A model generated the notes under the pieces. That model was not told the origin of the DNA, searched no databases, and saw only the letters and a list, made by a program, of their open reading frames with translations. From NCBI GenBank assembly GCA_033762255.1, contig JANRLT010000022.1, positions 1 through 64,000 of the forward strand: 64,000 nucleotides of DNA. Reading direction: 5' to 3'. Numbering within the stretch: the first letter of the stretch is position 1; every line of letters begins with the position of its first letter. This document shows positions 48,095-64,000 of the stretch, one piece after another. Source of the stretch: Pirellulales bacterium. GTDB lineage: Bacteria > Planctomycetota > Planctomycetia > Pirellulales > JALHPA01. A program made the translations under genes and the position numbers.

Positions 48095-51000
48095 TTAGAA
48101 CTCGCCAAAGAAGTCCGCCACGGCGAGTCCGCGGGCTGACTTGGTGGTGGATTCTTCCGCCTGATGCCAAACGGCTCCGGCCAGAACATCCGCTCCCACC
48201 AGGCTTTCAACATCGCTTTCGCTAAACAAGGCGATCACATCCCCGGCGGCCAGCGGATTCCCCACGCCCGAACCAAAGTTCGAGTCGATGGGCAGGTAGT
48301 CAGCTGGTGTGACCAATCCGTCAAAATCCCCATCGCCCAGAGTCCATCCACCGGAGAGGCCCGGCGTGGTGGATCCCAAGAAGGAATCAACCACGGTGTA
48401 ATCGGCTCCATCGACCTGGCCATCGAGGTTATAATCGCCCGGATAGGTAAAGCGGATAATCGTTTGATTAAATCCGGTTCCAAAGGTCGAATTACCCAAG
48501 GTCAGATCGTAGAAGGGATTACCAACGTCGCCGAACTGGCTGTTGGCGTTATCCACCGCAATGATGATCCGGCCGCCTCCAGAGTTGTCGACTGTGGTGC
48601 TGCCGATGACGGGCACACCGCTGCCGGTGGCGATAAGGCCAAACGAGTAATAGTTATCGATAAAGGCCGTAATATCACCCGTGGGGTTGGTCCCCAACGG
48701 ATCATAATTCAAGACCAAATCGTTATCGTTCAGGTCAATCAGGCTTTCGCCGCTCATCGCCAGGCTATTCAACACCAACAGGCCGTTGGCCAAGCCGTTT
48801 TCACGGATTGTCAAGCGGCTGGCATTTCCCAATAACGAAAGCGCGTCGCCACGCAAACCATTTACCGTCAGGCCAGAGCCAACGGTGATCGTGACATCGC
48901 GGGTGTCAACCAAGGGCAGGGGATCGGTATCTACCAGGTTGACGTTTTTCGCGATAGAGACCGTGCCATCGACCGTGACGCCCGCGGCGGCGGCAATGGT
49001 CAGCGACCCGCTGTCGATATCGGTGATATTGGCACTGAGGGTGACTCCCCCTGCGCTAGTCAGACTGATCGGCGCGCCGCTGTCCGTACCAGTGGCTCCA
49101 CCAATCCGCAGGACGCCGGCGTCATTGGTAATCACAATGTCATGGGTCGCGTTGCCGCTGGTGGTATTAGCGGTAAAGCTCGCGCCATCCACTTCGCTCA
49201 AGTAGATGCCACCATTAATGTTGGTCGCCACAACCGTGCCCGCCTGGGTGCGAACCGGCTGGGTGGGGCTGCCGATGTTATTTTCATCGGCCAGCAATAC
49301 CACGGTGCCGCTGCCGACATTGACCACGGCTCCCGGTTGCATCGTGATGCCGCCAGCCCGGCTGGCGCTGGTTCGGGCCAAAGGATCCACCGTTACCGTG
49401 CCGCCATCGCCAGTGGTGACATTGTTGAGCACAATTTGGCTATTCCCTTCGGCAGAGACAGTCAGCAACACTGCGTTGGCGGTGGTGTTGCTAGTCGTGA
49501 TGCTGCTGGCGGGATCCATGAGTAATTGATGGCCCGTGCTGACGCCATCTAAATTGGTGTCGATCTGGACTGTACCGGCAAAGCCCGCACCCCCAATAGC
49601 GCTGTAAATGAACACGCTGTCATCAGCCTGCAAGATAATCGCGCCCGGACCTTGGGTGGTCACCGGCCCGCGGATCGTCAGATCATGGCCGGTGGAGTTA
49701 GTGGTCATCACTGTCACCCCGCCACCTGTGGCGGTGGCATTGAACACGGCGAAATCATTCGGTCCCCAGGCATTCACATATAACCCGCCGGTCCCCGCGG
49801 TGCCGTACAGGCCATGCACCAACTCGGTTTGGGGATTGATGGAAATCGCCGCATCCAACGGGAGCGGACTGGATACCGTTCCGATGGAGCCATTGGCGCC
49901 GCTGGTCAGGTAGAACTCGGCGGCGCGGATGGTGGTGGAGTTTGTCAGGAGGCGATCCGGCGTGGGAATGCCTTCGGCCAACAGGATCGAACCTCCGGCA
50001 TTCACGGTCAGACGGCCCACGCTGGGGGAAACACCGCCGCCGGTGGACATCCGGGCCAACCGGGCATCACCCGCGCCGCCAACCGTAATCGTGATCGCCG
50101 CATTGGTCGTGTTATCCGTGGAAACGGTTGCCACCGGGCTTTGGCTGTAGCCTTCGGCTCCGGTATTATCGGTGTTGGCGTTGATGGTAATGGTTCCCAA
50201 CATACTCAAGTTACCGATATCGGCGTTCACCACAATCCCGTCATCGCTACTTAGGAAAATATTTCCCTGGTAGGTCTGCAGGGCACTGTCGACGGCCAAG
50301 ATACCAGACAAATTGGTAAAGGAGACATCTCCCGTTCCAATGGCCAAACCGCGAATACTGGCTCCATCCAACTCGGTGACGTAAGCTCCCCCTTCACCAG
50401 CCAAGGCCGTGATCGCCCCCGCCTGTGTGCGAATGGGGTCCGTGCTGGTGCCGATCGCTCCCGCCCGGATATCCACAAAGCCATTCCCCACATTAATCAA
50501 GGTGCCGGCGGTTTGGGTAACGGTGGAAAAGCTGTTGATGGAAACCTCGCCACCGGCTGCGGTCGTATTGCCCAGGATGGTGAGTGAGTCGCCTAGTTGC
50601 CCGCCGCCGACAATTTGCAAGGAATCCTCGATCGCTTGCAGCGTGACGGAATCCACGCCGTCTCCCGTGTTGACCTTGAGCAGGTTGACGCTGCTAGAAG
50701 GCCCGGTCGCGGTGTTGGCATCGGACAATGTCCAGCCGTTGGCAATCGCGGCGGCGGTCAGGGTGATCGGCTCGCCACTGTCGCTGATCGTGTAGACCCC
50801 GCTTGCCGCATTGATGACAACATTGTTGGCAAAGCCCGTTCCAGCGGAGTACGCCAGGACACCGTCCACCACATCCAGCGTCGCGGCAACCGCCGTGGCC
50901 GAAGGTGGCAAGTAGAAAATCGTTAATTCCGGACGGGTGTCCGCCGTGGTGGCATTCATACTATTAAAGATCCAACCATCGCTGCCACCCGCCCAGGGAA

Positions 51001-54000
51001 CAATACCCCAACCATTGTTGGCTTCGCCATTCACCCAAGCCTGAACATCGTTAGTGACGTTGTAGTAATTGCGGGCGGACTGTTCATTGGGGGAGAGAGC
51101 CGCTTGTCCCGCCTGGTCACTGTAAATGCCAGTGGTTTCGGTTGCTGGATCAATACCCTCAACGGTGGTATTCCAGGTTGGATTTAACCCAAAGTCGGTG
51201 TTCAAGCGGAAGAACCGTCCACCATCACCGCGGGAGTTACCTGAATTGGAAAACAGCATCAAACTGGCGCCTAGAATTGTCGAACCAGCGGGAATCTGAT
51301 TGATCGCGTTCCCCACCAAATCGCCATACTTAATAATTCCGTGCGCGGCGTTATTGCCCCCATCGGTAAAGTCAATCAGGATCGTTTGGGCATTGGATGC
51401 ATCGGCATCCGGGGCATTCTGCGATACCTGGGTGTCAAAGCCGGCAGTGTAGCCATTCACATTTTGCTGCAACACCAGCGTTTGGGTGCCGGGAGTGATC
51501 CAGGTGACTACCAGTTGCGGGCGATTACCCACAATAGCCGCCTCGGAGGAATCCAGGCTCCAGGTGTAGGGATTGGGTGAAATTGGCAAGAAAGCCCAAC
51601 CATTATTGGTTTCGCCATTCGACCAGGCTTGCAGGTCATCCCGCACGCCAAAATTTGCCTGACCAGCATTGACACCCGCCCCGCCAGCGGCACTGCCAGC
51701 AAACGAATTAAACGCCGTGCGGGCCTCGACATTGTTATTTTGGATGCCGTTTCCGCCAAATGTGTTCCAGTTATCCGTGGCGGACCAGCTGCTAACCATG
51801 CGGTGCAGTTGTCCCCCCAGGTTGGCTGCAGTGGAGTTCAGTGTTAAGTAGGCATCAATGATTTTTGCACCAAACGGAATCTGGCCCGGCCCGTTGCCGA
51901 ACAGATTCTCGTAACGGAGCAACGTCGTTTGCTGAGTACCCGAGGTCGGCGAGACGCTGAGCGTGGTCGCGGCGCTGTTGTCGGCGGTTGGGTTGGCGGC
52001 TTGGATCACCGTGTCCACCGTGCCGGTGTAGCCGTTAAACCCTTGCAAGAAGATCGAATTGTTGATCAGCGGATTGTCAAAGGTGGGGGTAACAGTGATG
52101 CTGGCAGTTTCTGTCGCCACGCTAAACGGAGTGGTAAAGCCACTGAGCGAGGCATCAAACAAATCGCCATTGACACCCTGGCTTTGATCCCACGCGCGGA
52201 AGGTCAAACCCGTGGAAACGGTACCATTGTAATTTGGGCTGGGGATAAACCGCACGCGTGTCGTGGCGTCCGACGCCAACAAGCGGGCGGAATTTGCCGT
52301 CACTCCCGCCAAGCTGGCCCAGGTCGCTCCGTTATCCAGCGAGTATTCCCAGGCGCCGTTGGAGTTGCTAACGCCAATCACGGCAATCCCTTCGGGGTCG
52401 CCATCCAGGTCCGTGATGCGATCGCCACCCGCACTGCTGATAATAGCCGACACCAGCGAGCCGCTATTGGAAATAGTATCCTCGTTGATTGCGCCCAGAC
52501 TCATGTTCCCGGTGTTATCGAGGACCGGAGCGGCATTGACACTGGCAGACTTGACCCAATCTTCGTTACCACTGGCGGCCAGCGGGGTATTATCATCCTG
52601 GCTGACAATCGTGCCATTGGCAGTGACCGTTAGGACGTAGCTGCCATCCAGATTGGTCGGCACCGTCAGGTTGTTGATCGTCCAGTTAATATTATTAGAG
52701 GTGGTAACGGTGACTCCTGTCAGCGATACCGGCAATGAATTGCGGGTAAGCGTCAAATCACTGATGTCAAAGCCATTCACCGCCTCGGTAAAGTTGACCT
52801 GGATCGACGCGACCGAGCTATTACGCGGATCGGGGAAGACATTGACCACGTCCACGACCGGCACGGTCTTGGTATAGGTTAAGACCACGTCATTACCATC
52901 GCCACCGGCGTAATTGATGGTAAAGAAGTAGGTGTCCAGGATGATGCTCGACCCTTGGGCAAAGGTGCCGCTAACCGTCCCCATGTTATTAATCAAGGTA
53001 AACGAGTCGCCCAACGTCGGCATATAGCCCAGCGTTAGTGCCAGCGTCGCCCCACCCAAGGTGAAATTGTCGGTATTGATTTGGTCGTATAAGCTACCGG
53101 CCGTGACGCCATTCAGGTCAAAACTGGCCGTGGAACCCGCGGTCAGGGTCAAATCGTCGGTGATCAACCCAATGGGGGAAAGACCGGGGGCAACAGTACC
53201 TCCGGCAAGAATGCTCAACGGCCCGCTCACCGTTCCAAAGCCCAGAAGGCTTTCGCCGGAACCAACTTCAAAACCAGTGGCCGAGACCAGAATCCCTCCG
53301 CCCAGCGTGGTCGTGGGGCCAAGCTGAACAACATTTCCATCCGTCACGGTGACGGTATTATTGAGGATGTTCCACGGGGCGGAGGCAAAGACATCGCCGG
53401 ACATGGCGTCCAGAATGATCGGGCCGCTATTGGCATCTCCCACCTGGGCGGCAAGTTCAATTCCCCCCGGGCTTTGCAAGAAAAACACGCTGCCGGTGAA
53501 GCTGTCATTGGCCGACGGACCAGTGACTCGCAACAGCCCCGATAGGTTATTGACGACGACCGAAGGAACGGAAATCGTTGAACCACCTGGAACCGAGGTA
53601 TTGACCGTCAGATCCGCACCGTCCGTTTCCGTGATGTAAATGCCATCCTGGGTGGTGGTGGCAATAATCGTGCCAGCGGTTGTGCGAATGCTGTTCAGAT
53701 TATCGCCAATGGAACCACCGGAACCACCGCCGCCGCCGTTGAGGATCACGGTCCCCGTCGCTCCGGCATTCAGCGTGTTGACCATGCTGGCATTGAGGAT
53801 ACTTCCCGCGCGGGCCGGGTTGGTACCCGCCGCGGCGTTGATCGTGATCGTGCCACCGTTGCCGACTTCCACATTGCTGATAATAATCGCGCTAAAGTTG
53901 CTGCTGACGGAAGTCGCGGAGAGGGACAGAGTAACTGCGTTCGCGGTGTTATTAGTCGTGAACACACCGGGGGAGTTGGTCATATCCAGGCGGTGTCCGT

Positions 54001-56770
54001 CCGAAACTCCGTCCAAATTCGCTTCGATGGTGATCGTGCCGCTGGTCACGCTGCCAGAAAGGGCATCCGGCTTGCCAATGACGGCATTCACATTCAAGGT
54101 GTCATCGGCCTGGAGCCGGATATTGCCATTTGGCGTATAGACTGGACCATTGATGCTCAAATTGTGGCCATTGGCATCTGAGAGGTAAATCTGGATATCG
54201 CCACCAGCGGCGATTGCCCCGGCCGAACCAATCGTCAGATCTGCGTCATTCCATTCTTGAATAAAGATACCCCCCGTGCCCGCCAGGTAATCCGCGGCGG
54301 AGGTCGCCTCGGTCGCGCTGTTGGTTTGGATGGGAGCGGCCAGTGTCCCGATCGAGCCATTGCCAGTCGGGCTATTCTTTAACGAGAGCAACCGGGAAGT
54401 GATAAAGTTGATGCTTCCTGCGGTCCGACCAGGGACATCGATCGCGGGATTCCACAAGATGGAACCGTTATTGCTTTGCACATTATACCCCCCCCCCGCG
54501 ACGGTGGCATTAGCCAGGACCGCGTTGCCCGTGCCGCCGCCAGCAGTATTGACATTGATCGTCACCGCGTTGGCGCTGGTGCTGCGTGAGGTAATATTTG
54601 ACACGGTAACCTGGGTATTGGCGGCTGTCCCCTGATATTGGGCGCCTTGCAAGAAACCCTCGGAGCCAATTCCGTCGGCATTGGCATTCAGGGTCAGCGT
54701 GGAACTGGTATCAAACATGGCAATCGCCGCGTCGAGGGCTAATTCCAAGGCATCATTGCTGGTGATCACGGCATCCCCCCCCACCACCATGCCATCCCCG
54801 TTCACGCTGGTTTGACCAACCAACCGCAATGTCCCCGCGCTATTTAAGACGGTTAAATTGCCATCATTGGTGACTACCGCGGTAAGGTCCGCGCCGTCCG
54901 CCTCGGTAACAAACACACTATTTGCTCCGCCGGTCAGGATCAATTTGCCCGCGGCAGACAGAATGGGTGAGCCGCTGCTACCGATGCCCGTACCTTGCAG
55001 CGACAATGTGGCCGAACCCAAATTAAAGCTGGCGGCACCGGTCCGGGTGATGCTGTTGAATTCGGAAATGGTGACATTGGCCGCCAGATTCAGGGTGTTG
55101 GCCAGGGTAAAGGTGTCACCCGCTTGGCCGCCGCCGGCAATCGACAGTGTGTTGCTCGCGCTATTAAGCGTGACGGCGTCATCCCCGTCATTGGTATCGA
55201 TACTCAGGCTGGTGACGCCCGCCACGGGACCGGTAACGATGTTGGTGCCGCTTCCCGTCCAACCCGCGGTGATCGCGGCGGCGGTTAGCGTGATTGGCTG
55301 GGAATCGGCAAGGGTGTAGGTTGTTCCATCCGAACTGATCGCCAGGGTGTTGTTTTGTCCCGCTCCAGCGCTGTAGGTCACCGCTCCGCTATTAAAATCA
55401 AGCGTGGTGCCGGCTGGTGCTGCGGGGGGAGTGAACGAAATGTATAACTTGGGCTGCGAAGCCGCTAAAGTCGTCTCCGAAGGCTCGATCCCCCAACCAT
55501 CCGTGCCATCCACCCAGGGATTGATCACCCAACCGTAATTGGGTGTGCCATTCGACCAGGCTTGCAAGTCCGTCAAGATGTCAAACTGTTGAAATCCAGC
55601 CTGAGAATTAGGATTGCGGGCGACCACGCCGGCTTGGGTATTGAAAGCGGTTTCCGCTTCTACCCCGTCGATGTTGACTCCGCCACCCAGGGAGTTGTAC
55701 GTGGCTGTCAGTTGATTCCAGTCGATTTTCATCCGGTGAAATGTGCCGCCGTCACCCGCCGCGTTGCTGCCAAAGCTGCGCAACATCATGCTGGCGCCAT
55801 TAATGGTCGAACCATAAGGAATTTGGTTGGGGCCATTGCCAAAAATATTGTCAAAACGGATCAGAAGCTGATGATTGGCGTTGGCATTTGGTTCGGTAAA
55901 ATCCGAGAAAATGGTGGTGGTCTGCGTTCCCGCCGTAAACGCTGCGGGGACATTTTGCTGAATCCAGGTGTCTTGGGTTCCCTGGTAGCCCCCAACACCA
56001 TTTTGGAATGTGATAAAGTTGGTCCCGGCTGGCTCCCATTCCACGACCAAGCGGGGTCGTTGGGTAACCGTGCCATGCTCTTTGGTACGAAATTCCCAAC
56101 CGTCGGTGCCGCTGGCCCAGGGGATAAATCCCCAACCGTGATTGGCGGTGCCATCCGACCAGGCCTGGACATCTTCGGTGACAAAGGCGGGATAAACGAC
56201 GCCATTGGGGGCGTCGGCGTTGCGGCTGGCATTCCCCACATGGGCAAAAGAGACGGTATTAAGCTCGATACCGTCATTGGCGAGGCCATCGGTAAAGGAA
56301 TCCCAAGTCGCGGTGGATTCATCCCAAGCGTTTAACACCCGATAAAGCTGGCCGCCGTCACCACCGTTGAAAGTTGTGAATTCAACACGGGCGGAGATGA
56401 TTCTAGAACCGAGCGGAACTTGTCCCGCGCCATTGCCAAAGATATTGTCAAATCGCAGCAACCCATGTCCGGCGTTATTTGCATTAGCGTCCGTAAAGTC
56501 AATCAAAATACCAGCAGTGGCACCCTGGGGAGCGGCCGCGTTGGCTTGCAAAAGCTGCGTATCCGCCGTCCCCATATAGCCATCCACCCCTTCCTGGAAC
56601 GTGCTGGTGGTTGACAGGGCAAAGCGTTCCTCCAGGTTTTCCAGCGAAATTTTGCGGCTTAAAGCCTGCCGAGCCGGGTGCAAAGTCTCTTGAGAACGTG
56701 TCGATCCGTGACGAAGGTTGGCGGTTTGACGGTTACGGGCGAACAAACGAGCCAGTGTGCGGGTCACCAT
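48095..56770 (-). CDS. Giant surface protein with four DNRLRE domains, beta-helix repeats and a C-terminal dockerin-like module
   Basis: The ATG at 56770 has AAGGA nine bases upstream; a TTG at 56803 is weaker. The 2891-residue product starts with a basic stretch and LENLEERFALS, a motif seen near the N-terminus of many large planctomycete surface proteins. Two DNRLRE-like domains (about 60-440), a long stretch of Gly/Asn/Thr-rich beta-helix-type repeats, Ig/cadherin-like segments (about 1280-1570), two more DNRLRE-like domains, more beta-helix repeats and a C-terminal dockerin-like segment (YNLDGQVDGADYTVVDSFLG and DGLVTPADYLPIDS, two calcium-loop-type repeats) follow. The layout of the two halves is duplicated. 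It is probably a secreted, matrix-forming adhesin. Sorting route unknown. Confidence 0.88.
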   Translation of the reverse strand: MVTRTLARLFARNRQTANLRHGSTRSQETLHPARQALSRKISLENLEERFALSTTSTFQEGVDGYMGTADTQLLQANAAAPQGATAGILIDFTDANANNAGHGLLRFDNIFGNGAGQVPLGSRIISARVEFTTFNGGDGGQLYRVLNAWDESTATWDSFTDGLANDGIELNTVSFAHVGNASRNADAPNGVVYPAFVTEDVQAWSDGTANHGWGFIPWASGTDGWEFRTKEHGTVTQRPRLVVEWEPAGTNFITFQNGVGGYQGTQDTWIQQNVPAAFTAGTQTTTIFSDFTEPNANANHQLLIRFDNIFGNGPNQIPYGSTINGASMMLRSFGSNAAGDGGTFHRMKIDWNQLTATYNSLGGGVNIDGVEAETAFNTQAGVVARNPNSQAGFQQFDILTDLQAWSNGTPNYGWVINPWVDGTDGWGIEPSETTLAASQPKLYISFTPPAAPAGTTLDFNSGAVTYSAGAGQNNTLAISSDGTTYTLADSQPITLTAAAITAGWTGSGTNIVTGPVAGVTSLSIDTNDGDDAVTLNSASNTLSIAGGGQAGDTFTLANTLNLAANVTISEFNSITRTGAASFNLGSATLSLQGTGIGSSGSPILSAAGKLILTGGANSVFVTEADGADLTAVVTNDGNLTVLNSAGTLRLVGQTSVNGDGMVVGGDAVITSNDALELALDAAIAMFDTSSTLTLNANADGIGSEGFLQGAQYQGTAANTQVTVSNITSRSTSANAVTINVNTAGGGTGNAVLANATVAGGGYNVQSNNGSILWNPAIDVPGRTAGSINFITSRLLSLKNSPTGNGSIGTLAAPIQTNSATEATSAADYLAGTGGIFIQEWNDADLTIGSAGAIAAGGDIQIYLSDANGHNLSINGPVYTPNGNIRLQADDTLNVNAVIGKPDALSGSVTSGTITIEANLDGVSDGHRLDMTNSPGVFTTNNTANAVTLSLSATSVSSNFSAIIISNVEVGNGGTITINAAAGTNPARAGSILNASMVNTLNAGATGTVILNGGGGGSGGSIGDNLNSIRTTAGTIIATTTQDGIYITETDGADLTVNTSVPGGSTISVPSVVVNNLSGLLRVTGPSANDSFTGSVFFLQSPGGIELAAQVGDANSGPIILDAMSGDVFASAPWNILNNTVTVTDGNVVQLGPTTTLGGGILVSATGFEVGSGESLLGFGTVSGPLSILAGGTVAPGLSPIGLITDDLTLTAGSTASFDLNGVTAGSLYDQINTDNFTLGGATLALTLGYMPTLGDSFTLINNMGTVSGTFAQGSSIILDTYFFTINYAGGDGNDVVLTYTKTVPVVDVVNVFPDPRNSSVASIQVNFTEAVNGFDISDLTLTRNSLPVSLTGVTVTTSNNINWTINNLTVPTNLDGSYVLTVTANGTIVSQDDNTPLAASGNEDWVKSASVNAAPVLDNTGNMSLGAINEDTISNSGSLVSAIISSAGGDRITDLDGDPEGIAVIGVSNSNGAWEYSLDNGATWASLAGVTANSARLLASDATTRVRFIPSPNYNGTVSTGLTFRAWDQSQGVNGDLFDASLSGFTTPFSVATETASITVTPTFDNPLINNSIFLQGFNGYTGTVDTVIQAANPTADNSAATTLSVSPTSGTQQTTLLRYENLFGNGPGQIPFGAKIIDAYLTLNSTAANLGGQLHRMVSSWSATDNWNTFGGNGIQNNNVEARTAFNSFAGSAAGGAGVNAGQANFGVRDDLQAWSNGETNNGWAFLPISPNPYTWSLDSSEAAIVGNRPQLVVTWITPGTQTLVLQQNVNGYTAGFDTQVSQNAPDADASNAQTILIDFTDGGNNAAHGIIKYGDLVGNAINQIPAGSTILGASLMLFSNSGNSRGDGGRFFRLNTDFGLNPTWNTTVEGIDPATETTGIYSDQAGQAALSPNEQSARNYYNVTNDVQAWVNGEANNGWGIVPWAGGSDGWIFNSMNATTADTRPELTIFYLPPSATAVAATLDVVDGVLAYSAGTGFANNVVINAASGVYTISDSGEPITLTAAAIANGWTLSDANTATGPSSSVNLLKVNTGDGVDSVTLQAIEDSLQIVGGGQLGDSLTILGNTTAAGGEVSINSFSTVTQTAGTLINVGNGFVDIRAGAIGTSTDPIRTQAGAITALAGEGGAYVTELDGASIRGLAIGTGDVSFTNLSGILAVDSALQTYQGNIFLSSDDGIVVNADIGNLSMLGTITINANTDNTGAEGYSQSPVATVSTDNTTNAAITITVGGAGDARLARMSTGGGVSPSVGRLTVNAGGSILLAEGIPTPDRLLTNSTTIRAAEFYLTSGANGSIGTVSSPLPLDAAISINPQTELVHGLYGTAGTGGLYVNAWGPNDFAVFNATATGGGVTVMTTNSTGHDLTIRGPVTTQGPGAIILQADDSVFIYSAIGGAGFAGTVQIDTNLDGVSTGHQLLMDPASSITTSNTTANAVLLTVSAEGNSQIVLNNVTTGDGGTVTVDPLARTSASRAGGITMQPGAVVNVGSGTVVLLADENNIGSPTQPVRTQAGTVVATNINGGIYLSEVDGASFTANTTSGNATHDIVITNDAGVLRIGGATGTDSGAPISLTSAGGVTLSANITDIDSGSLTIAAAAGVTVDGTVSIAKNVNLVDTDPLPLVDTRDVTITVGSGLTVNGLRGDALSLLGNASRLTIRENGLANGLLVLNSLAMSGESLIDLNDNDLVLNYDPLGTNPTGDITAFIDNYYSFGLIATGSGVPVIGSTTVDNSGGGRIIIAVDNANSQFGDVGNPFYDLTLGNSTFGTGFNQTIIRFTYPGDYNLDGQVDGADYTVVDSFLGSTTPGLSGGWTLGDGDFDGLVTPADYLPIDSNFGSGVGNPLAAGDVIALFSESDVESLVGADVLAGAVWHQAEESTTKSARGLAVADFFGEF
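50580..52070 (-). repeat. Internal module copy 2 of the giant surface protein
   Basis: Two further DNRLRE-like domains followed by SAGTGFANN, ITLTAAAIANGW and LQIVGGGQLGDS, aligning with the corresponding stretches of copy 1 about 4.5 kb away. Between the copies lie beta-helix repeats and Ig-like segments. Confidence 0.75.
55120..56600 (-). repeat. Internal module copy 1 of the giant surface protein
   Basis: Two DNRLRE-like domains followed by a segment containing SAGAGQNN, ITLTAAAITAGW and LSIAGGGQAGDT, then the start of the beta-helix array. The same order recurs in the second copy (50580-52070). Sequence identity is moderate, so the duplication is old. Confidence 0.75.
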
Positions 56771-57300
56771 GAAGTCATCCTTAAGTAAGTAGAAAGCGCG
56801 CAAATTCTCTGTTAAAAAACCGATGTAACTGCTCCAAGAATCCAGCCAATCATCTACTGCGAAAAGATTCGCGATAAACCATTGACATGACGAGCCGGTT
56901 TACCTCTACCGGTGAGAGTAAGTTTAATGGCGAATTGTTAAGATACGCTAAAAGCTGAATGTCAATTCGATTTGATTACTGTTAAATAAGCGTGAGTAGC
57001 GCGATGATGTTTTTGCGGATTTCCGCCGTTTAACGCAATTTTAGCCTGCGCAGTTTAACATTGATGCGAATTTAAATAGCTTTGTTAATTTTTTTGAAGA
57101 GCCTAAAACTGCAGTGATCCAGATTTTGTAATTATTCACACAAGCCTAACACTATCTCAAATCAAACGACACATTGGCTGGTTAAAATTCTTCTGCGTAA
57201 ATCGAGTTGGCAAACTCAAGTCACACTGACATTTCGCTGCAATACTCCTATCATTTGTGTAGGAGCGTTTTTGTTTATTAGCCCCCCGGGATTGGAATCC
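56771..57300. other. 530-bp AT-rich divergent intergenic region
   Basis: AT-rich non-coding region between the giant gene and the DUF1559 gene. It must hold promoters for both. The right end has a hairpin next to the DUF1559 start. I see no ORF or RNA gene. A short GAGTT-GGCA-AACTC inverted repeat lies near 57205-57220. Confidence 0.45.
57245..57265 (+). promoter_or_regulatory. Hairpin that pairs with the AGGAG near the DUF1559 start
   Basis: CTCCTA (57245-57250) pairs exactly with TAGGAG (57260-57265) across a nine-base loop, and is followed by CGTTTTTGTTT. The right arm contains AGGAG, five bases before a possible TTG start at 57271. The hairpin could hide this ribosome-binding site or end transcription early. 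Confidence 0.4.
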
Positions 57301-58257
57301 ATGAATTTGATTTTTAGCACTCGCACGAAGCGTGGCTTTACTCTGGTCGAACTATTAGTTGTCATCGCCATTATCGGCATCTTAGTCGCGCTGCTCTTAC
57401 CCGCGATCCAGTCCGCCCGCGAGGCCGCTCGCCGCAGCAGTTGCATCAATAACATGCGGCAACTCGGCTTGGCCTGCCACAACTACATGGGCATCCATAA
57501 AGCCTTACCCCCTGCGTACTTAGAGTACAACGCCACGCTGCGACCAAACCTCCGGGACACCAGTTTTCACACGTTGATGCTGCAATATATCGAAGAATCC
57601 AATATCGCCAAAATTTATAACTTTAAAGTGAACTGGAATGATGCCGCCAACCGCCGCGCCACCGATGTCGAGATTCCCCTTTTGATTTGCCCTTCTGTCG
57701 GTGATTCCGAACGCCAGTGGGCCACGGATTACGCTCCCTGCACGGTCATCAGCAATTCCAATAATTACGCCCTGGCCTCGGATAATCCCAGCACGCCCAA
57801 GCTAATCGATTATTTGGAAAGCAAAGGGATTAAAAGCCGTCGAATCACCGACTCGGAATCACGAATGCAAATTCAAGGAAATGGCCTGTCGGGTTATATC
57901 CAAGGGGCGTTGCGGCAAAATCTCAAGACCCCGTTTAAAAAGCTCACTGACGGATTGTCCAAGACATTTTTGCTGTTTGAAGATGCCGGCCGACCCGTTC
58001 GCTACAAGTACGGTCAACGCACGAACGCCATTGTGGCCAAGGAGCGGACTGGGGAAGGAACCGAGTGGTTCAACCATGACAACTATTTTCATGTGCATAA
58101 TTATCCCATGTTTAACTACCACAATGGGAATGAAATTTATGGCATGCACAACGGCGGGGCGGTCTTTTTAAACTGCGATGCATCGACCGAATTCGTCAGC
58201 GAGGAAATCAACGACAGGATTTTTGTCGCGCGGTTTTCGGTCAATTCAGGGGATTAG
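57301..58257 (+). CDS. DUF1559 protein with prepilin-type N-terminus
   Basis: The 318-residue protein has a type IV pilin-like start: a short basic leader, then [23 protein letters not shown], the peptidase cleavage and hydrophobic segment, followed by the DUF1559 body ([25 protein letters not shown]). These proteins are hugely multiplied in planctomycetes and are thought to be pseudopilin-like surface or secretion components. The ATG at 57301 is chosen by family habit; a TTG at 57271 with AGGAG five bases upstream is an alternative that would add ten residues. It is divergent from the giant gene. Confidence 0.9.
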
Positions 58258-58418: not shown

Positions 58419-60275
58419 CTATGGCAGCCGGTCCAACCCCAGGGCCGCGCGATAATCGGCCTCGGCTTCGTGAAATTGGGCCCGGGCCTCGATCTCTTTC
58501 ATCGCGGCCTCAATGGCGTATTGCTCGCGCAGGGTTACTTTGAGCATATCGCTTAACCCCTCGGAAAAATTCAGCCGCTCGCGCTCGGCGAGTTCCTCGG
58601 CATAACGGACCGCCTCGCTAGCCCGTTGAACCTGCACATAGGTGGCGACCATGGCGGCGTACGCGGACTGGACCTGAGCGCTAATTTTATCCTCGGCCAG
58701 TTCCCGCTTGGCCCGCAACTGGCTGATCTTGGCCTGTACCGCTTGAATTTTGCCCCATCCCTTGCGCCGCTGCAACGGCACATCCACATACACTCCCGCT
58801 TCTAACTCAAAGGGGGATTTATCCCGCTTAGAACTAGTTGGCTCACCCACATCCTGCGACCCGTAGACCTGCGCATCGACCTCGGGTAGGGTCTCATTTT
58901 TGGCCAAGTTTAGATCAATTTCGAGCTCTTGCCGCAGTATGTCATACAACGCCAGGTCGGGCCGATTGTAATACGCCGCCTGAATATCCGTGACCAACCC
59001 CCGGGGATCAAGCGGCCGAATGGAGGGGAAATCGGGAATTTGCTCCAGTGTCGGGACAACCGGCTCGCCGTTGGCATCCCGTAAATAAAGCGACAGTTTC
59101 ACGCTCTTTTCCCACAGCTTACGTTCGGTTTCGGCTAATTTTACCTGCCGTTCCGCCACCAACCGCAAATTATCCGTCAGTTCCGGCGGATCAATCAACT
59201 GTGCTTCGACTTGCTTACGGATTCGATCCGTCCGGTCCAGGGCGAGGTCCAAAATCCCCTGCGCGATCTTGCGGGCCTGGCCCGCCGCCACCCATTCCCA
59301 ATAGGCGTAACTGGCTTCTTGGACAAAGTCGATTAACTGCGCTTGGATGTCCGGCTCGGCATAGCGGCGTTCTAGCATCGCGCGGGATAATTCCGCCCGC
59401 CGTTCGTCGATGATCCGATTTTTGGCAAACGGAACATACATCCCTAGTTTAAATTCGCCCCCTTTATTGGTTTCGCGTTCCAGATACCAGGGTTGAAATT
59501 CTCCCCGCCCTATGCGGTATCCGCCAAACAAATCCGAGCCGGGAAACAGTGGCTGAACAAAGCCCACCGAATGGCGGTAGTTTTCGTAAAAACCGAGGGG
59601 CATATTCTCGCTGGAGGCTTTGATTTTGGTATCAAACGCGCCGCTGGCGGCCAGATAATTTCCCGCCGCCAAATCACGCGAATAAATCGCGGACTCTAGC
59701 AGCGGATAACTGCGATAGACCGAATTGATCACTTGCGGCAAAAGCACCTTGGGGGCCGTGGGAGCCTTACCCGCCGCCGCTCCTCGCGGGATTTCCTCGA
59801 CGCCATTTCCCTTCTCTGTCGGAAGTGGTGGCAACGGGGCATCCGGCTGTTCAGATGCATTAGCCGCAGGCGGTGATGCTTGCGTTGCGGTTCCAGGGAC
59901 GGTTGACTCGGGTGGAGCTGGAGGGGGTGGTAACGGCGCACCCGCTCCGTCATCCGGCTGCCGCGGTACCTCCGCCTGTGTATGCTTTGCCAACTGAATG
60001 TCCTGATCCGCGTGGGAAGGAGGCGGATTAGTTTTGTCAGGGATGTTTAAAACCCGTTGTGCGGCGGATGGGGAATTTTCCCGCCAAAAGCTGGGGGCGA
60101 CCGGCTGGGTGATAGACGCGTTTGCCGCCCGAGTTGTATTTTGCACCCGGGAAGCAGAAAGAGAATTGCCGTCAGCGGTTTTCCGCAAGGGGGATGGGGG
60201 CGCGGGAGAGCGCGTGGATTGGCACCCTAGCGCCAACCCAACCGCCACGAACAAAAACATCCATGTTTTTGGCAT
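58419..60275 (-). CDS. TolC-family outer-membrane lipoprotein
   Basis: The ATG at 60275 opens a lipoprotein signal with the box LALGC (Cys18), so I prefer it to the frame start at 60329. The 618-residue protein has a Pro/Ala-rich linker of about 150 residues, then a TolC/OEP domain with long helices (about 190-610). In a Gram-negative-like envelope it would form the outer-membrane tunnel of a tripartite exporter. HlyD and ABC proteins are encoded upstream on the same strand. The Pro-rich linker is longer than usual for this family. Confidence 0.87.
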   Translation of the reverse strand: MPKTWMFLFVAVGLALGCQSTRSPAPPSPLRKTADGNSLSASRVQNTTRAANASITQPVAPSFWRENSPSAAQRVLNIPDKTNPPPSHADQDIQLAKHTQAEVPRQPDDGAGAPLPPPPAPPESTVPGTATQASPPAANASEQPDAPLPPLPTEKGNGVEEIPRGAAAGKAPTAPKVLLPQVINSVYRSYPLLESAIYSRDLAAGNYLAASGAFDTKIKASSENMPLGFYENYRHSVGFVQPLFPGSDLFGGYRIGRGEFQPWYLERETNKGGEFKLGMYVPFAKNRIIDERRAELSRAMLERRYAEPDIQAQLIDFVQEASYAYWEWVAAGQARKIAQGILDLALDRTDRIRKQVEAQLIDPPELTDNLRLVAERQVKLAETERKLWEKSVKLSLYLRDANGEPVVPTLEQIPDFPSIRPLDPRGLVTDIQAAYYNRPDLALYDILRQELEIDLNLAKNETLPEVDAQVYGSQDVGEPTSSKRDKSPFELEAGVYVDVPLQRRKGWGKIQAVQAKISQLRAKRELAEDKISAQVQSAYAAMVATYVQVQRASEAVRYAEELAERERLNFSEGLSDMLKVTLREQYAIEAAMKEIEARAQFHEAEADYRAALGLDRLP

Positions 60276-60404
60276 GAAAACCCAACCTAGATCCCGCAGA
60301 TGACACAGTTTATCCCTTAGCCATGTCACGCTATGGGATTCATCGACCCGCCTTACTGGCTAGCTGCATGAGGATTGCAGGAAAAAGCCACAAACCTGGG
60401 CGTG

Positions 60405-61901
60405 CTAGCTTTTTGGCAGCTTGGGGGGTTTGGATTTTTTTTCGGTTTTGGCTTCGTCTTTTTCCAAATCAACCACCGGGGGAAAGCTGTTCAGTCGCCG
60501 CCAGAACTCAAACCACAGCGGGACCCGGTCTAAGAGCACCCAGCCGTTAGCGCGCACACCTTGGCGGAGAAAGCGAACATCGGGCCAGGGGGGATCGGTG
60601 GGATCGGGCTTAATGAGGACACGGAATTTGCCGTATCCGTTATCGGTGGCATCGACCGAGATAACCTTTCCTCCAAATGTGCCCACGGCAACCGAGGGCC
60701 AGCCGGAAAACTGAATCGCGGGCCATCCCTCGAACTGCAGGCGGACATGCCGACCGGGTTCGACCAGGGGAGCATCGTTGCCATCCAGCCACAACTGAAC
60801 CGCCCGATCTTTGGTTTCGGGAACAATCGTGCAAATCATGTCTCCTTCCTTGAGAAACTGGCTCCCTTGATTGGGAGTGATCTGCAGGATAAAGCCATCA
60901 AAGGGAGCCAAAATGACCTGGTCCCGCTGGCGGGAAACTTTAATCCGGGCCTCCAGGACTTCCTTTTCCGCTTTACTTAATTCCTGCTGCGCCTTGGCGA
61001 CATCGCTTTCCGCCTTGGAAATATCCCCCCGGGCCTTGGTCAGGCTGGCCTGGGCGTATTCGATATCACCCTGGGCTTTTTGGATTTTTGCATGGCGGTC
61101 CCGCTCTTTGGCCGCCAGTTCGGATTCGGCCGAATCGACGTAGGATTCGGCCCGCTTGACTTTAGCCTGGTATTCGATCAATTTTCGCTCGATTTCCTGC
61201 AATTTTTGTAGGGAAATATTACCCGCCTGCTGCAGGCGTTTGGTCCGGTCAAATTCCGCCTGAAGCTGCGGGATGGCGGCGTTGTATTCATCCAACTGGT
61301 GCTTTTCGGCCTGGAGCTTATCCGCGGCCATTTGCACGTAGGCCTCTTGCGAGGCGACTGTTTCATCCTTGACGTTTTGATAGGCGCGCAATTGTCCTTC
61401 CAACGCCGAGATGATGGCCTTGGAGGCGAGCAGCATCCGTTCATTTGCCTGCAATTGGTCCTTGGCGGCCTTGGCCTGGTTTTCGGTGTTGGCCAACTGA
61501 TCAGCCAGGCGTTGGCTGTAATCCTCGTCCAAGTCGCTAATTTCGACGATCATCTGGCCTTTGGTGACACGGGCGTTTTCTTCGATGCCATCCCCCCAGC
61601 GGACAATTCGCCCCTTGATGGGGGCCTCGATGGTTTGCGATCTTTCCCCGGGCGCAAACGCGATCACATTGCCGCTGCCGGTCACGGACTGCTGCCAGGG
61701 GGCAAATGCCAAAAACAACACCGCCGCCACCAGCGTCATAAATAAGAGTTTGGCGATCCAACGGGCTTTTTTAGAGGAGCGCACCAAGCGCAGGGAGGGA
61801 ACCGCGTCCTCGCTATAAGCCACGGGAGACAACAGCGGCTGACGGTCCGTGTGCCCCTGGGCGGGCGCATGATCAGCGGGATGGAGCGTGGTCGGGGACA
61901 T
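60405..61901 (-). CDS. HlyD-family membrane-fusion protein
   Basis: The 498-residue protein has a short cytoplasmic N-terminus, one membrane segment (about 48-70), a biotinyl-lipoyl-like segment (TIEAPIKGRIVRWGDG near 90-115), a long coiled coil (about 125-330) and the closing lipoyl half (ILAPFDGFILQITPNQGSQFLKEGD). A Lys-rich tail (EKKSKPPKLPKS) ends it. It bridges the ABC transporter to the TolC partner; the gene starts 16 bases after the ABC stop and lies 129 bp before the TolC gene. Confidence 0.92.
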   Translation of the reverse strand: MSPTTLHPADHAPAQGHTDRQPLLSPVAYSEDAVPSLRLVRSSKKARWIAKLLFMTLVAAVLFLAFAPWQQSVTGSGNVIAFAPGERSQTIEAPIKGRIVRWGDGIEENARVTKGQMIVEISDLDEDYSQRLADQLANTENQAKAAKDQLQANERMLLASKAIISALEGQLRAYQNVKDETVASQEAYVQMAADKLQAEKHQLDEYNAAIPQLQAEFDRTKRLQQAGNISLQKLQEIERKLIEYQAKVKRAESYVDSAESELAAKERDRHAKIQKAQGDIEYAQASLTKARGDISKAESDVAKAQQELSKAEKEVLEARIKVSRQRDQVILAPFDGFILQITPNQGSQFLKEGDMICTIVPETKDRAVQLWLDGNDAPLVEPGRHVRLQFEGWPAIQFSGWPSVAVGTFGGKVISVDATDNGYGKFRVLIKPDPTDPPWPDVRFLRQGVRANGWVLLDRVPLWFEFWRRLNSFPPVVDLEKDEAKTEKKSKPPKLPKS

Positions 61902-61917
61902 ATCAACAATTCTCGAA

Positions 61918-64000
61918 TTATGTTAAGGGAAATTGAAGTTGCCGCTGGCAGAGCCGCGCCAGCGATGCCCGACCGGTCACCAGCACCAGGGTTCTTCCCC
62001 GTTCGCTGGCGCACAGCCGCAATAAAATCGCCTCGGCTTCGTCATCTGGCAAGGTATCCAACGTGCCATCCACCAAAAGCACCGATGGTTGCTGAACCAG
62101 CGCGCGGGCCAGCATCAGTTTACGTAATTGATTCCCCGTGAGGGGTTGGCCATTGGTCGCCACCACCGTATCCAGTCCCTGCGGTAAATCCAGCACATCG
62201 TCCAGCAGGCCCACCTGTTCCAAGGCCCGCTGTAATTCGGACGCGGAAATATCGGCCCGACCGAGATGGATGTTTTCGGCGATGGTCCTTTCAAAAACCT
62301 CAATATCGCGAACCAACACCACCACCGAGCGCAATAAATCGGTGGGCAGCCCGCGGTAATCCAATCCGCCAATCGCGACATGGCCACTTTGGGGCGTGCG
62401 CAGTCCATATAATAAGTCTAACATAACGCTCTTGCCGCCGCCGCTAGGTCCGACCAGGACGATGCGTTCTCCCGCGGAAATCGTCAAATCCAGGTTTTTT
62501 AACACTGGAGGACGATGGGGAAAACTATAACTGACCTGCTGCATCCGCAAATCGGGATTATCCGGGAGCTTGGCCAGCATTTGGCTTCCCTGGGGTTCAA
62601 TGGGAAGCTCAAATAGGTGATTTAGCTTATCCATCGAGGCCATGACATCATAAAAGCTTTCCAAATGTTTACCCAATTTGGCAAATGAGTCCACAATGGT
62701 CGCCACAATCAGGTTGGCCGCGACCAGTTGGCCCAGGGTCATTTGCTGCGAAATGACGAGCCACCCCCCCAGGCCCAACAGCACCGTGGTGGCCAGGGCC
62801 TGCATTCCCAGGGCAAACATAATCTGGCGTATGAGGATGCGAAAATGCCGTTGGCGGGCGATTAAATATTCCGAAGAGATCTGATCGACGCGTTCCATCG
62901 CAAAGCGCGCCGCGCCATTATAACGCAGCGCAATGGGTGAATCGGACAGATCCTCCAGCCAACTGGCCATATTGTATTTGGTGCGGGACTCGGCGATCGA
63001 GGATTGGATCGCCCCCCGTCCCATCACAAATAACACGATCACCAACATCGTGACCAGGATAATATCAAATCCCAATAGCCAGGGATGATAAAACGCTAGC
63101 ACCGCCATGCCAATAAACGTATTTAATACCAGTGAAATGCCGTCCAGCAGCAATTGCGCGGTGACTTTTTGCACGGTGACAATTTCAAAGTAGCGATTGA
63201 CCAGTTCCCGCCCCGACTGCCGGTCCAGGGCTTCGCTGCGCACGCGAGGCAAACGATAGGCCAAATCCGCCACGATCCGCGCAAAAAGCCGCCGCTGAAT
63301 AATTTCCACGACAAACGTCTGCAACGTCCGCAAGGCCGCCTGAAAAGCCAAAATAATAAATAACATGATCGCCAGGATGATCACTGGCTGGAAAAACCGC
63401 CCAAAGGCGACCGTGCTGACCAACGACTCCACGGCCAAGGGCGTAGCCAGTGACAATAGGCCAATCACCACCGCAAAAATCAGCACCATCCATATGTCAT
63501 ACCATTCGGGCTTTAATAGTTCCCAAAACTGGCGGTGCGGGGCGCTATGTTCGTGATGCTCGGCCCAGCCAGCGTGATCCAAGGTCTCAATGGCGAACAC
63601 CCGCGCGACCGGGGGGACATTTTTACTTTCCAGGTACTGCTCTAACTTTTCCGGCTCGAGCGTACGAACTTCCGACGCCGCGGCCTCAAACAGGGTCACG
63701 CCATGATGGTCCAAACTGGTCAAACCCAGCCAAGTTTGGTCGGGTAACAGCATGATCGCCTGCAATCCAGCCTGGCATAGCTCCAAAAGCTGCTGGTGGG
63801 TGCAATCAATGACCCGGCAGCGCTGGTCCAGCGTATGCTCGGCCGTTAATAACCATTTTGACCAATCATCGGGGAGTGTCTCTGGCTGTTGGGCGGCGTT
63901 TTCCTCCAAAGTGCGCCGCAACCGCGCGCGATCCACCGTATGCCCGGTCTCCAAGGACCAATGGTCAAAGATCCACAGGACCTGGCTGAGGTGTTGCAGG
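61918..64000 (-). CDS. ABC exporter subunit with degenerate ATPase motifs (5' end cut by window edge)
   Basis: The frame stays open past the TTG at 63954 to the right edge, so the true start may lie outside. The protein has an N-terminal region of about 150 residues without a clear domain, six membrane segments (about 160-430) as in type I secretion ABC proteins, and an ATPase domain. Walker A is intact (GPSGGGKS). However, the Q-loop has VRD, the signature is LTGNQ rather than LSGGQ, Walker B is VLLVDGT (the catalytic Glu is Gly), and the switch His is Gly (VTGRAS). Such a domain probably binds ATP but hydrolyses it poorly. HlyD and TolC genes follow, so it is the inner-membrane part of an exporter. 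Confidence 0.88.
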   Translation of the reverse strand, partial: LQHLSQVLWIFDHWSLETGHTVDRARLRRTLEENAAQQPETLPDDWSKWLLTAEHTLDQRCRVIDCTHQQLLELCQAGLQAIMLLPDQTWLGLTSLDHHGVTLFEAAASEVRTLEPEKLEQYLESKNVPPVARVFAIETLDHAGWAEHHEHSAPHRQFWELLKPEWYDIWMVLIFAVVIGLLSLATPLAVESLVSTVAFGRFFQPVIILAIMLFIILAFQAALRTLQTFVVEIIQRRLFARIVADLAYRLPRVRSEALDRQSGRELVNRYFEIVTVQKVTAQLLLDGISLVLNTFIGMAVLAFYHPWLLGFDIILVTMLVIVLFVMGRGAIQSSIAESRTKYNMASWLEDLSDSPIALRYNGAARFAMERVDQISSEYLIARQRHFRILIRQIMFALGMQALATTVLLGLGGWLVISQQMTLGQLVAANLIVATIVDSFAKLGKHLESFYDVMASMDKLNHLFELPIEPQGSQMLAKLPDNPDLRMQQVSYSFPHRPPVLKNLDLTISAGERIVLVGPSGGGKSVMLDLLYGLRTPQSGHVAIGGLDYRGLPTDLLRSVVVLVRDIEVFERTIAENIHLGRADISASELQRALEQVGLLDDVLDLPQGLDTVVATNGQPLTGNQLRKLMLARALVQQPSVLLVDGTLDTLPDDEAEAILLRLCASERGRTLVLVTGRASLARLCQRQLQFPLT

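Follow-up and report, generated by a model that had tools for sequence, protein, structure and literature searches.

An ABC exporter-like inner-membrane protein with a probably dead ATPase, encoded with HlyD- and TolC-type partners in several bacterial phyla

The exporter operon at the end of the window

The window, that is, the whole stretch of 64,000 nucleotides analysed here, ends inside the gene of an ABC exporter-like inner-membrane protein whose ATPase appears to be dead. Within the window this gene is a reading frame at 61918-63999 (-), open at the edge, which comprises the 3' part of the gene (693 codons and the stop); this is the position given by the first-pass annotation, which had also proposed following the frame past 64000. 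When this was done on contig C22, the complete gene was found at 61918-64041 (-), starting with ATG and free of internal stops, and it encodes an intact protein of 707 amino acids in which an ABC_membrane domain (PF00664, 36.2 bits against a cut-off of 28) is fused to an ATPase domain (PF00005, ABC_tran, 75.7 bits against a cut-off of 25). The best curated models are both type I secretion permease/ATPases and both score below their cut-offs, namely LssB (TIGR03375, 238.4 bits against 693.1) and HlyB (TIGR01846, 201 bits against 725.55); HlyB is also the top match when the membrane domain alone is compared with PDB structures.

Three regions can be distinguished in the protein. The N-terminal domain (residues 1-165; 63547..64000 (-)) may be C39-like, by its position only: a Pfam scan of the protein gave no C39 match, the alignment to the LssB model begins at model residue 80, within that model's own N-terminal part, and the region is poorly conserved and missing from many relatives. 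It is followed by the membrane domain (TMD, residues 166-485; 62587..63546 (-)), which is the conserved part of the family, and by a nucleotide-binding domain (NBD, residues 495-707; 61921..62559 (-)), recognised as degenerate from its motifs and the Pfam match. A single-sequence AlphaFold model of the protein reached a mean pLDDT of 41.2 and was set aside, so that residues could not be placed in a cavity.

Two genes lie downstream on the same strand, encoding an HlyD-type periplasmic adaptor of 498 amino acids (60405..61901 (-); PF13437, 43.1 bits) and a TolC-type outer-membrane channel of 636 amino acids (58419..60329 (-); PF02321, 94.5 bits). Both the HlyD_3 and the OEP match are above cut-off, and the early observation that these partners are intact is confirmed. 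ABC-exporter architecture together with an adaptor and a channel of these types in one operon is what the locus shares with type I secretion permease/ATPases such as LssB and HlyB. The arrangement is general in the family: where the flank is long enough, HlyD adjoins the ABC gene in 78 of 79 loci (exception L064), and TolC is near it in 70 of 72 (exceptions L064 and L107). At L064 (G124:C26), where the Walker A lysine is also lost, HlyD and TolC were not found in the 5.9 kb downstream.

Upstream, outside the window, a small HPF-like frame (L001:6079-6450 (-)) lies 36 bases from the exporter gene on the same strand; its S30AE match is below cut-off, and HPF-like frames precede the operon in 8 other loci. 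Beyond it a divergent LysR-type gene (L001:6515-7435 (+)) matches the NCBI NhaR model with 236.8 bits against a cut-off of 219. The recurring recognisable neighbours of the family are this LysR gene, a small HTH gene, a pilin-type gene and the HPF-like gene, while most other neighbour clusters resemble shadow frames of GC-rich DNA; clustering of the neighbours of family loci brought out no conserved substrate gene beside the operon. A giant protein encoded downstream in the window (48095-56803 (-); 2902 amino acids, surface-type, with four DNRLRE stretches and a weak dockerin-like C-terminal match) was considered as a substrate and rejected, no relative of it being found by blast beside any other family locus (90 loci). 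The window also holds a pseudopilin gene (57271-58257 (+)) with an N-methylation motif and a DUF1559 domain; such genes are frequent in planctomycetes, and together with the first-pass annotation this one suggests that the organisms are planctomycetes.

The family and the state of its ATPase motifs

In the NBD of the window protein Walker A is intact (GPSGGGKS, 62428..62451 (-)) and, by alignment, the other motifs are altered. The Q-loop (VVVLVRDIEVF, including LVRDIEVF; 62293..62325 (-)) has lost its glutamine and is one residue short; the signature LSGGQ is replaced by PLTGNQLRK (PLTGNQ; 62119..62145 (-)); in the Walker B and D-loop segment (SVLLVDGTLDTLPD, including LLVDGTLD; 62044..62085 (-)) the catalytic glutamate has become glycine and the D-loop serine aspartate; and in the switch region (TLVLVTGRAS, including LVTGRAS; 61963..61992 (-)) histidine has become glycine. 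The initial observation that Q-loop, LSGGQ, Walker B glutamate and switch histidine are altered together while Walker A is kept therefore holds on the full gene, and the D-loop is to be added as a fifth altered motif.

Relatives were sought at increasing distance. A search of 196 genomes from the order of the window genome yielded, by our count from the search listing, 88 matching places at E 6.6e-85 or better, spread over 85 of these genomes, and a gap followed down to 2.5e-49, where ordinary ABC exporters start. A phylum-wide search of 392 genomes, likewise counted from its listing, recovered the family from 23 of the 28 listed genomes of the same class and from 13 genomes belonging to other classes. 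From the same order, class and phylum 109 distinct members were extracted, and 12 more came from sphingomonads and Bacteroidota; the incomplete L038, L073 and L080 were left out of the trees and of the counts over 106 and 118 members, and the partial copies G050:C465 and G069:C401 are not among the sequences taken in. One weak locus from the first contig scan, in Pseudoruegeria and at 28%, was set aside. In a tree of the TMD, 106 members group together to the exclusion of eight ordinary exporters, with an SH-aLRT support of 100.

The members from other phyla came from plasmids: when 72,556 plasmid records were searched at the protein level, 22 matched at E 1e-40 or better, all from sphingomonads or Bacteroidota. 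A search with the TMD only, at E 1e-6, again matched just 22 records; the E. coli and Vibrio type I secretion ATPases in these plasmid records were not matched by this query, though the whole protein finds them. Twelve of these records were examined (L182-L193). All 12 carry most of the TMD residues of the family, and in the nine whose records are annotated at this point an HlyD-type or biotin/lipoyl adaptor gene and a TolC gene lie directly downstream (the other three records are unannotated there). These 12 form one clade with 35 members of the window's phylum, with support of 100 and apart from 13 ordinary exporters, and on this phylogeny the family is shown to span at least three phyla. 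A further copy on a Sphingopyxis plasmid (L194:4001-6736) is probably interrupted, its similarity ending beside an IS3-family transposase gene, and it was left out of the counts.

Loss of the catalytic residues is the rule throughout. The catalytic glutamate and the switch histidine are both missing in 109 of 118 full-length members, none of the 118 has the complete canonical motif set, and 25 have kept none of the Walker A lysine, the catalytic glutamate and the switch histidine. Within the window's phylum the glutamate is retained in 6 of 109 members and the histidine in 4, and the two glycines of the signature are glycine in 11 and 10 of 109, respectively; the D-loop serine is aspartate in 107, and the Q-loop segment has 11 residues in 105 of 109 relatives against 12 in 30/30 ordinary exporters. 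The Walker A lysine is retained there in 90 members (the window protein included) and lost in 19, and the Walker B aspartate is retained in 98. On the family tree the lysine has changed at least 9 times, and both it and the Walker B aspartate are lost in 8/8 sphingomonads. The ATPase domain is not even recognised by the Pfam ABC_tran model in L189 (Novosphingobium aromaticivorans) and L186 (Aureibacter).

Four members depart from this pattern. L045 and the near-identical pair L061/L062 keep lysine, glutamate and histidine (3 of 118), and L041 has LSGGQ and the glutamate, with the histidine one place off; all four have the short Q-loop and the D-loop aspartate. L041 and L061/L062 are nested far within the clade, and L045 sits near its base, on an unresolved branch; the four may have reverted or exchanged sequence with ordinary paralogues, and L045 may instead have retained the canonical residues. 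The copy at L041:986-3325 (-), deep in the clade and with LSGGQ and the Walker B glutamate, is a possible case of reversion or of exchange with an ordinary ABC gene.

The alterations had been open to the objection that homologues might carry canonical residues, which would have pointed to a local mutation or an assembly error. No family member carries the full set, the motif state is common to the whole clade (SH-aLRT 100), and the substitutions recur in the relatives, so that this explanation is ruled out. Judged by aligned residues, at least 109 of 118 members are inner-membrane subunits lacking the residues on which the known mechanism of ATP hydrolysis depends, and the reading that the ATPase of the family is dead is well supported. 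The annotation of several family genes, now called ABC transporter ATP-binding proteins, is corrected by this result.

Conservation of the membrane domain

In ordinary ABC exporters no part is better conserved than the ATPase domain; in this family the rule is inverted. Mean identity is 54% in the TMD and 39% in the NBD of the family, against 34% and 58% in a control of 30 ordinary exporters from the same order, which is weakened by mixing subfamilies and by not consisting of type I secretion ATPases. TMD identity exceeds NBD identity in 5538 of 5553 comparisons within the family, against 6 of 435 within the control; when pairs are matched for identity (mean 0.4-0.6), this is so in 4205/4208 family and 0/17 control pairs, and among the 12 members of other phyla in 66/66 pairs. 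Sites at least 95% identical number 46 in the TMD and 10 in the NBD of the family, against 7 and 55 in ordinary exporters; the 46 are drawn from 320 TMD sites compared among 109 relatives. The family shares ABC-exporter architecture with the type I secretion permease/ATPases and differs from them in its lost catalytic motifs, its inverted conservation and, for the window protein, scores far below the curated cut-offs.

Several of the conserved sites are peculiar to the family, whose TMD is only about 15% identical to that of ordinary exporters of the same order. P201, N282, R283, Q291, K292, S352, K355, Q406 and G425 are invariant across 118 members, and H319 is histidine in 116 of them; positions 282, 291, 292, 319, 352, 355 and 406 are mostly occupied by other residues in ordinary exporters. 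As far as an alignment of 118 proteins from three phyla can define them, N282, Q291, K292, S352, K355 and Q406 are family-specific invariant residues.

Both domains are under purifying selection: in 14 near family pairs with computable dS, dN/dS is 0.01-0.11 for the TMD and 0.03-0.18 for the NBD, which persists as the less tightly constrained of the two. A pseudogene is ruled out by these values and by the open frames. Since dN/dS is low in both domains, the gene is not decaying, and the NBD retains a role other than the original one of its motifs.

How the exporter may be energised

Transport driven by ATP is what defines ABC transporters. For the window protein the first-pass annotation had offered three ideas: a degenerate subunit with an active partner half, an ATP-binding regulator, or a subunit working by a different mechanism. 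The third is now the best supported. In the reading that we prefer, with a probability of about 0.5, the protein serves a tripartite exporter as its inner-membrane subunit; descended from an ABC exporter, it has lost ATP hydrolysis, keeps the NBD as a structural relic and is probably coupled to an ion gradient. The exporter would be built of the ABC-derived protein, the HlyD-type adaptor and the TolC-type channel. The ABC-derived subunit would form a homodimer, the dead NBD would only hold this dimer together or close the cytoplasmic gate, and an ion gradient (H+ or Na+), which we infer to be the energy source, would drive transport through the TMD, as in SbmA; HlyD and TolC would then take the substrate out, as in the proton-driven EmrAB-TolC.

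Known systems provide parallels for each half of this scheme. EmrAB-TolC combines an HlyD-type adaptor and TolC with an ATP-independent, proton-driven inner-membrane pump, and EmrB is an MFS protein, whereas the inner-membrane subunit of the present family is ABC-derived. SbmA, according to passages of PMC13316013, is proton-driven and evolved from an ABC exporter; the membrane domain of SbmA/BacA (SLiPT) is accordingly of the ABC-exporter type, as in our family, and works without ATP hydrolysis, energised by the proton gradient. SbmA/BacA lacks an NBD and is an importer, whereas members of our family have retained an NBD, though a dead one, and are accompanied by HlyD and TolC, and the SbmA family is not among the Pfam matches of the window protein.

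A more specific form of the ion-coupled reading is held tentatively, at somewhat below even odds: that this is a trans-phylum class of tripartite exporters in which an ABC protein of the type I secretion kind turned into an ion-driven secondary transporter, with the NBD as a relic and an invariant polar network in the TMD doing the coupling. The candidate network consists of N282, R283, Q291, K292, Y318, H319, S352, K355 and Q406, with E443 in most members. From the alignment E443 is the best candidate for a membrane acid, being glutamate in 103 of 109 members and in 12/12 from other phyla; its replacement by asparagine in the window protein itself counts against an ion-driven mechanism. The TMD of SbmA/BacA carries a conserved glutamate ladder, and E443 is the residue of the family that was compared with it. 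E205 in TM1 is glutamine in all 12 members from other phyla, and no membrane acid invariant in all members was found in the alignment.

The regulatory surroundings bear on the same question. In 20 genomes chosen for an operon-adjacent LysR gene, a match to the NhaR model lies beside the operon in 20/20 (adjacency taken from coordinates), and in 15 of these it is the only one of the genome; in 10 other genomes of the same comparison a match is present in 3 and beside the operon in none. An NhaR-type regulator near many copies hints at Na+ or pH control of the operon. Among the loci compared, a divergent upstream LysR gene like that beside the window operon is present in only 19 of 77, which also counts against an ion-driven mechanism, and a small HTH-like gene, named by eye, in 10 of 77. 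When 8 loci were scanned with Rfam for RNAs such as a Na+ riboswitch, one tRNA was the only match.

Should the ion-coupled reading hold, ABC proteins would have given rise to secondary transporters a second time, independently of SbmA, in this case with the motor still in place and in an export system reaching across both membranes. Searches of open-access PubMed Central (titles and abstract openings) brought up no account of a family of this kind, an ABC-derived tripartite exporter without its motor, and none is mentioned in passages of a review on tripartite systems (PMC8277102). A large natural family in which the ABC conservation rule is inverted, and whose operon is nevertheless kept across phyla, offers many independent motor losses for comparison, by which the role of the ATPase domain beyond hydrolysis becomes testable. 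Whether an ABC membrane domain can use an ion gradient in an exporter can likewise be tested in cultured hosts, for example N. aromaticivorans DSM 12444.

Among the alternatives, an exporter still driven by nucleotide in a non-canonical way is unlikely, and fares best. ATP binding would close the NBD dimer and open the pump, and release would follow by slow exchange or by slow hydrolysis through other residues, for example the D-loop aspartate. ATP binding may indeed still matter in the window's phylum, because the Walker A lysine is kept in 90 of 109 members and the NBD is under purifying selection; the Walker B aspartate (98/109) and the D-loop aspartate (107/109) are consistent with this, and a human TAP mutant of the D-loop still nucleotide-gates transport, according to passages of PMC7756269. 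Against it, the lysine was lost at least 9 times while the operon was retained, the sphingomonads lack both lysine and Walker B aspartate, and the signature glycines are mostly lost. An ATP-binding regulator is possible for the lineages that keep the lysine, which was, however, lost repeatedly in the family and wholly in sphingomonads.

It is quite unlikely that the protein is the degenerate half of a heterodimer whose canonical half-transporter is encoded elsewhere. Heterodimeric ABC exporters such as TM287/288, BmrCD, CydDC and TAP have likewise lost the catalytic glutamate and other motifs in one half. Their second half is canonical and usually the product of an adjacent gene, whereas the family loci (86 loci) have no partner encoded nearby. 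Not one of these 86 loci has an ordinary ABC exporter gene in the operon, so that the active neighbour which the first reading proposed to look for was not found; in 5 of 86 another ABC-like frame lies somewhere in the flanks, being either a weakly scoring frame of 260-271 amino acids or a gene on the opposite strand. ABC exporters commonly form heterodimers in which one site is degenerate, according to passages of PMC7756269, and a partner could be drawn from other ABC_membrane proteins, at least one of which is present in 26 of 28 genomes tested, with three or more matches in 47/47 genomes of a second set. In the two remaining genomes, G059 and G102 (each 93% complete), ABC_membrane matches nothing but the family protein, and G102 has no other single-NBD frame of exporter size, which is suggestive evidence against a hidden partner. 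A composite site would moreover need the LSGGQ or the Walker A of the family subunit, both of which are eroded in the family.

A facilitator or gated conduit without energy coupling, through which the substrate would leave down its own gradient, has a similarly low probability. Passages of PMC7756269 describe the TAP D-loop mutant as a nucleotide-gated facilitator without direction, and the D-loop serine is changed in the family; the strong and specific conservation of the TMD across phyla would suggest more than a passive pore. It is very unlikely that the protein does not transport at all and instead serves a different pump or ATPase, such as a secondary SecA, as a scaffold or sensor by which HlyD-TolC is controlled or assembled. 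Planctomycetes are described as having a separate HlyD module that includes a secondary SecA_DEAD protein (passages of PMC4452313), but a scaffold would not require conservation over the whole TMD. The second SecA_DEAD protein, encoded in the window genome on another contig than the exporter, occurs in nearly all genomes of the order, whether or not they have the operon, and is therefore no specific partner of it. As a candidate for a dedicated motor the secondary SecA was dropped as uninformative.

The ion-coupled exporter that we prefer and the planctomycete SecA_DEAD/HlyD/M50 module are alike in being type-I-like HlyD systems without a working ABC ATPase; in the passages of PMC4452313 the module has no ABC homologue and consists of genes different from those of the family operon. 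As a separate observation, most genomes of the order, that of the window included (contigs C61 and C51), encode two or more SecA_DEAD proteins, in agreement with the same passages.
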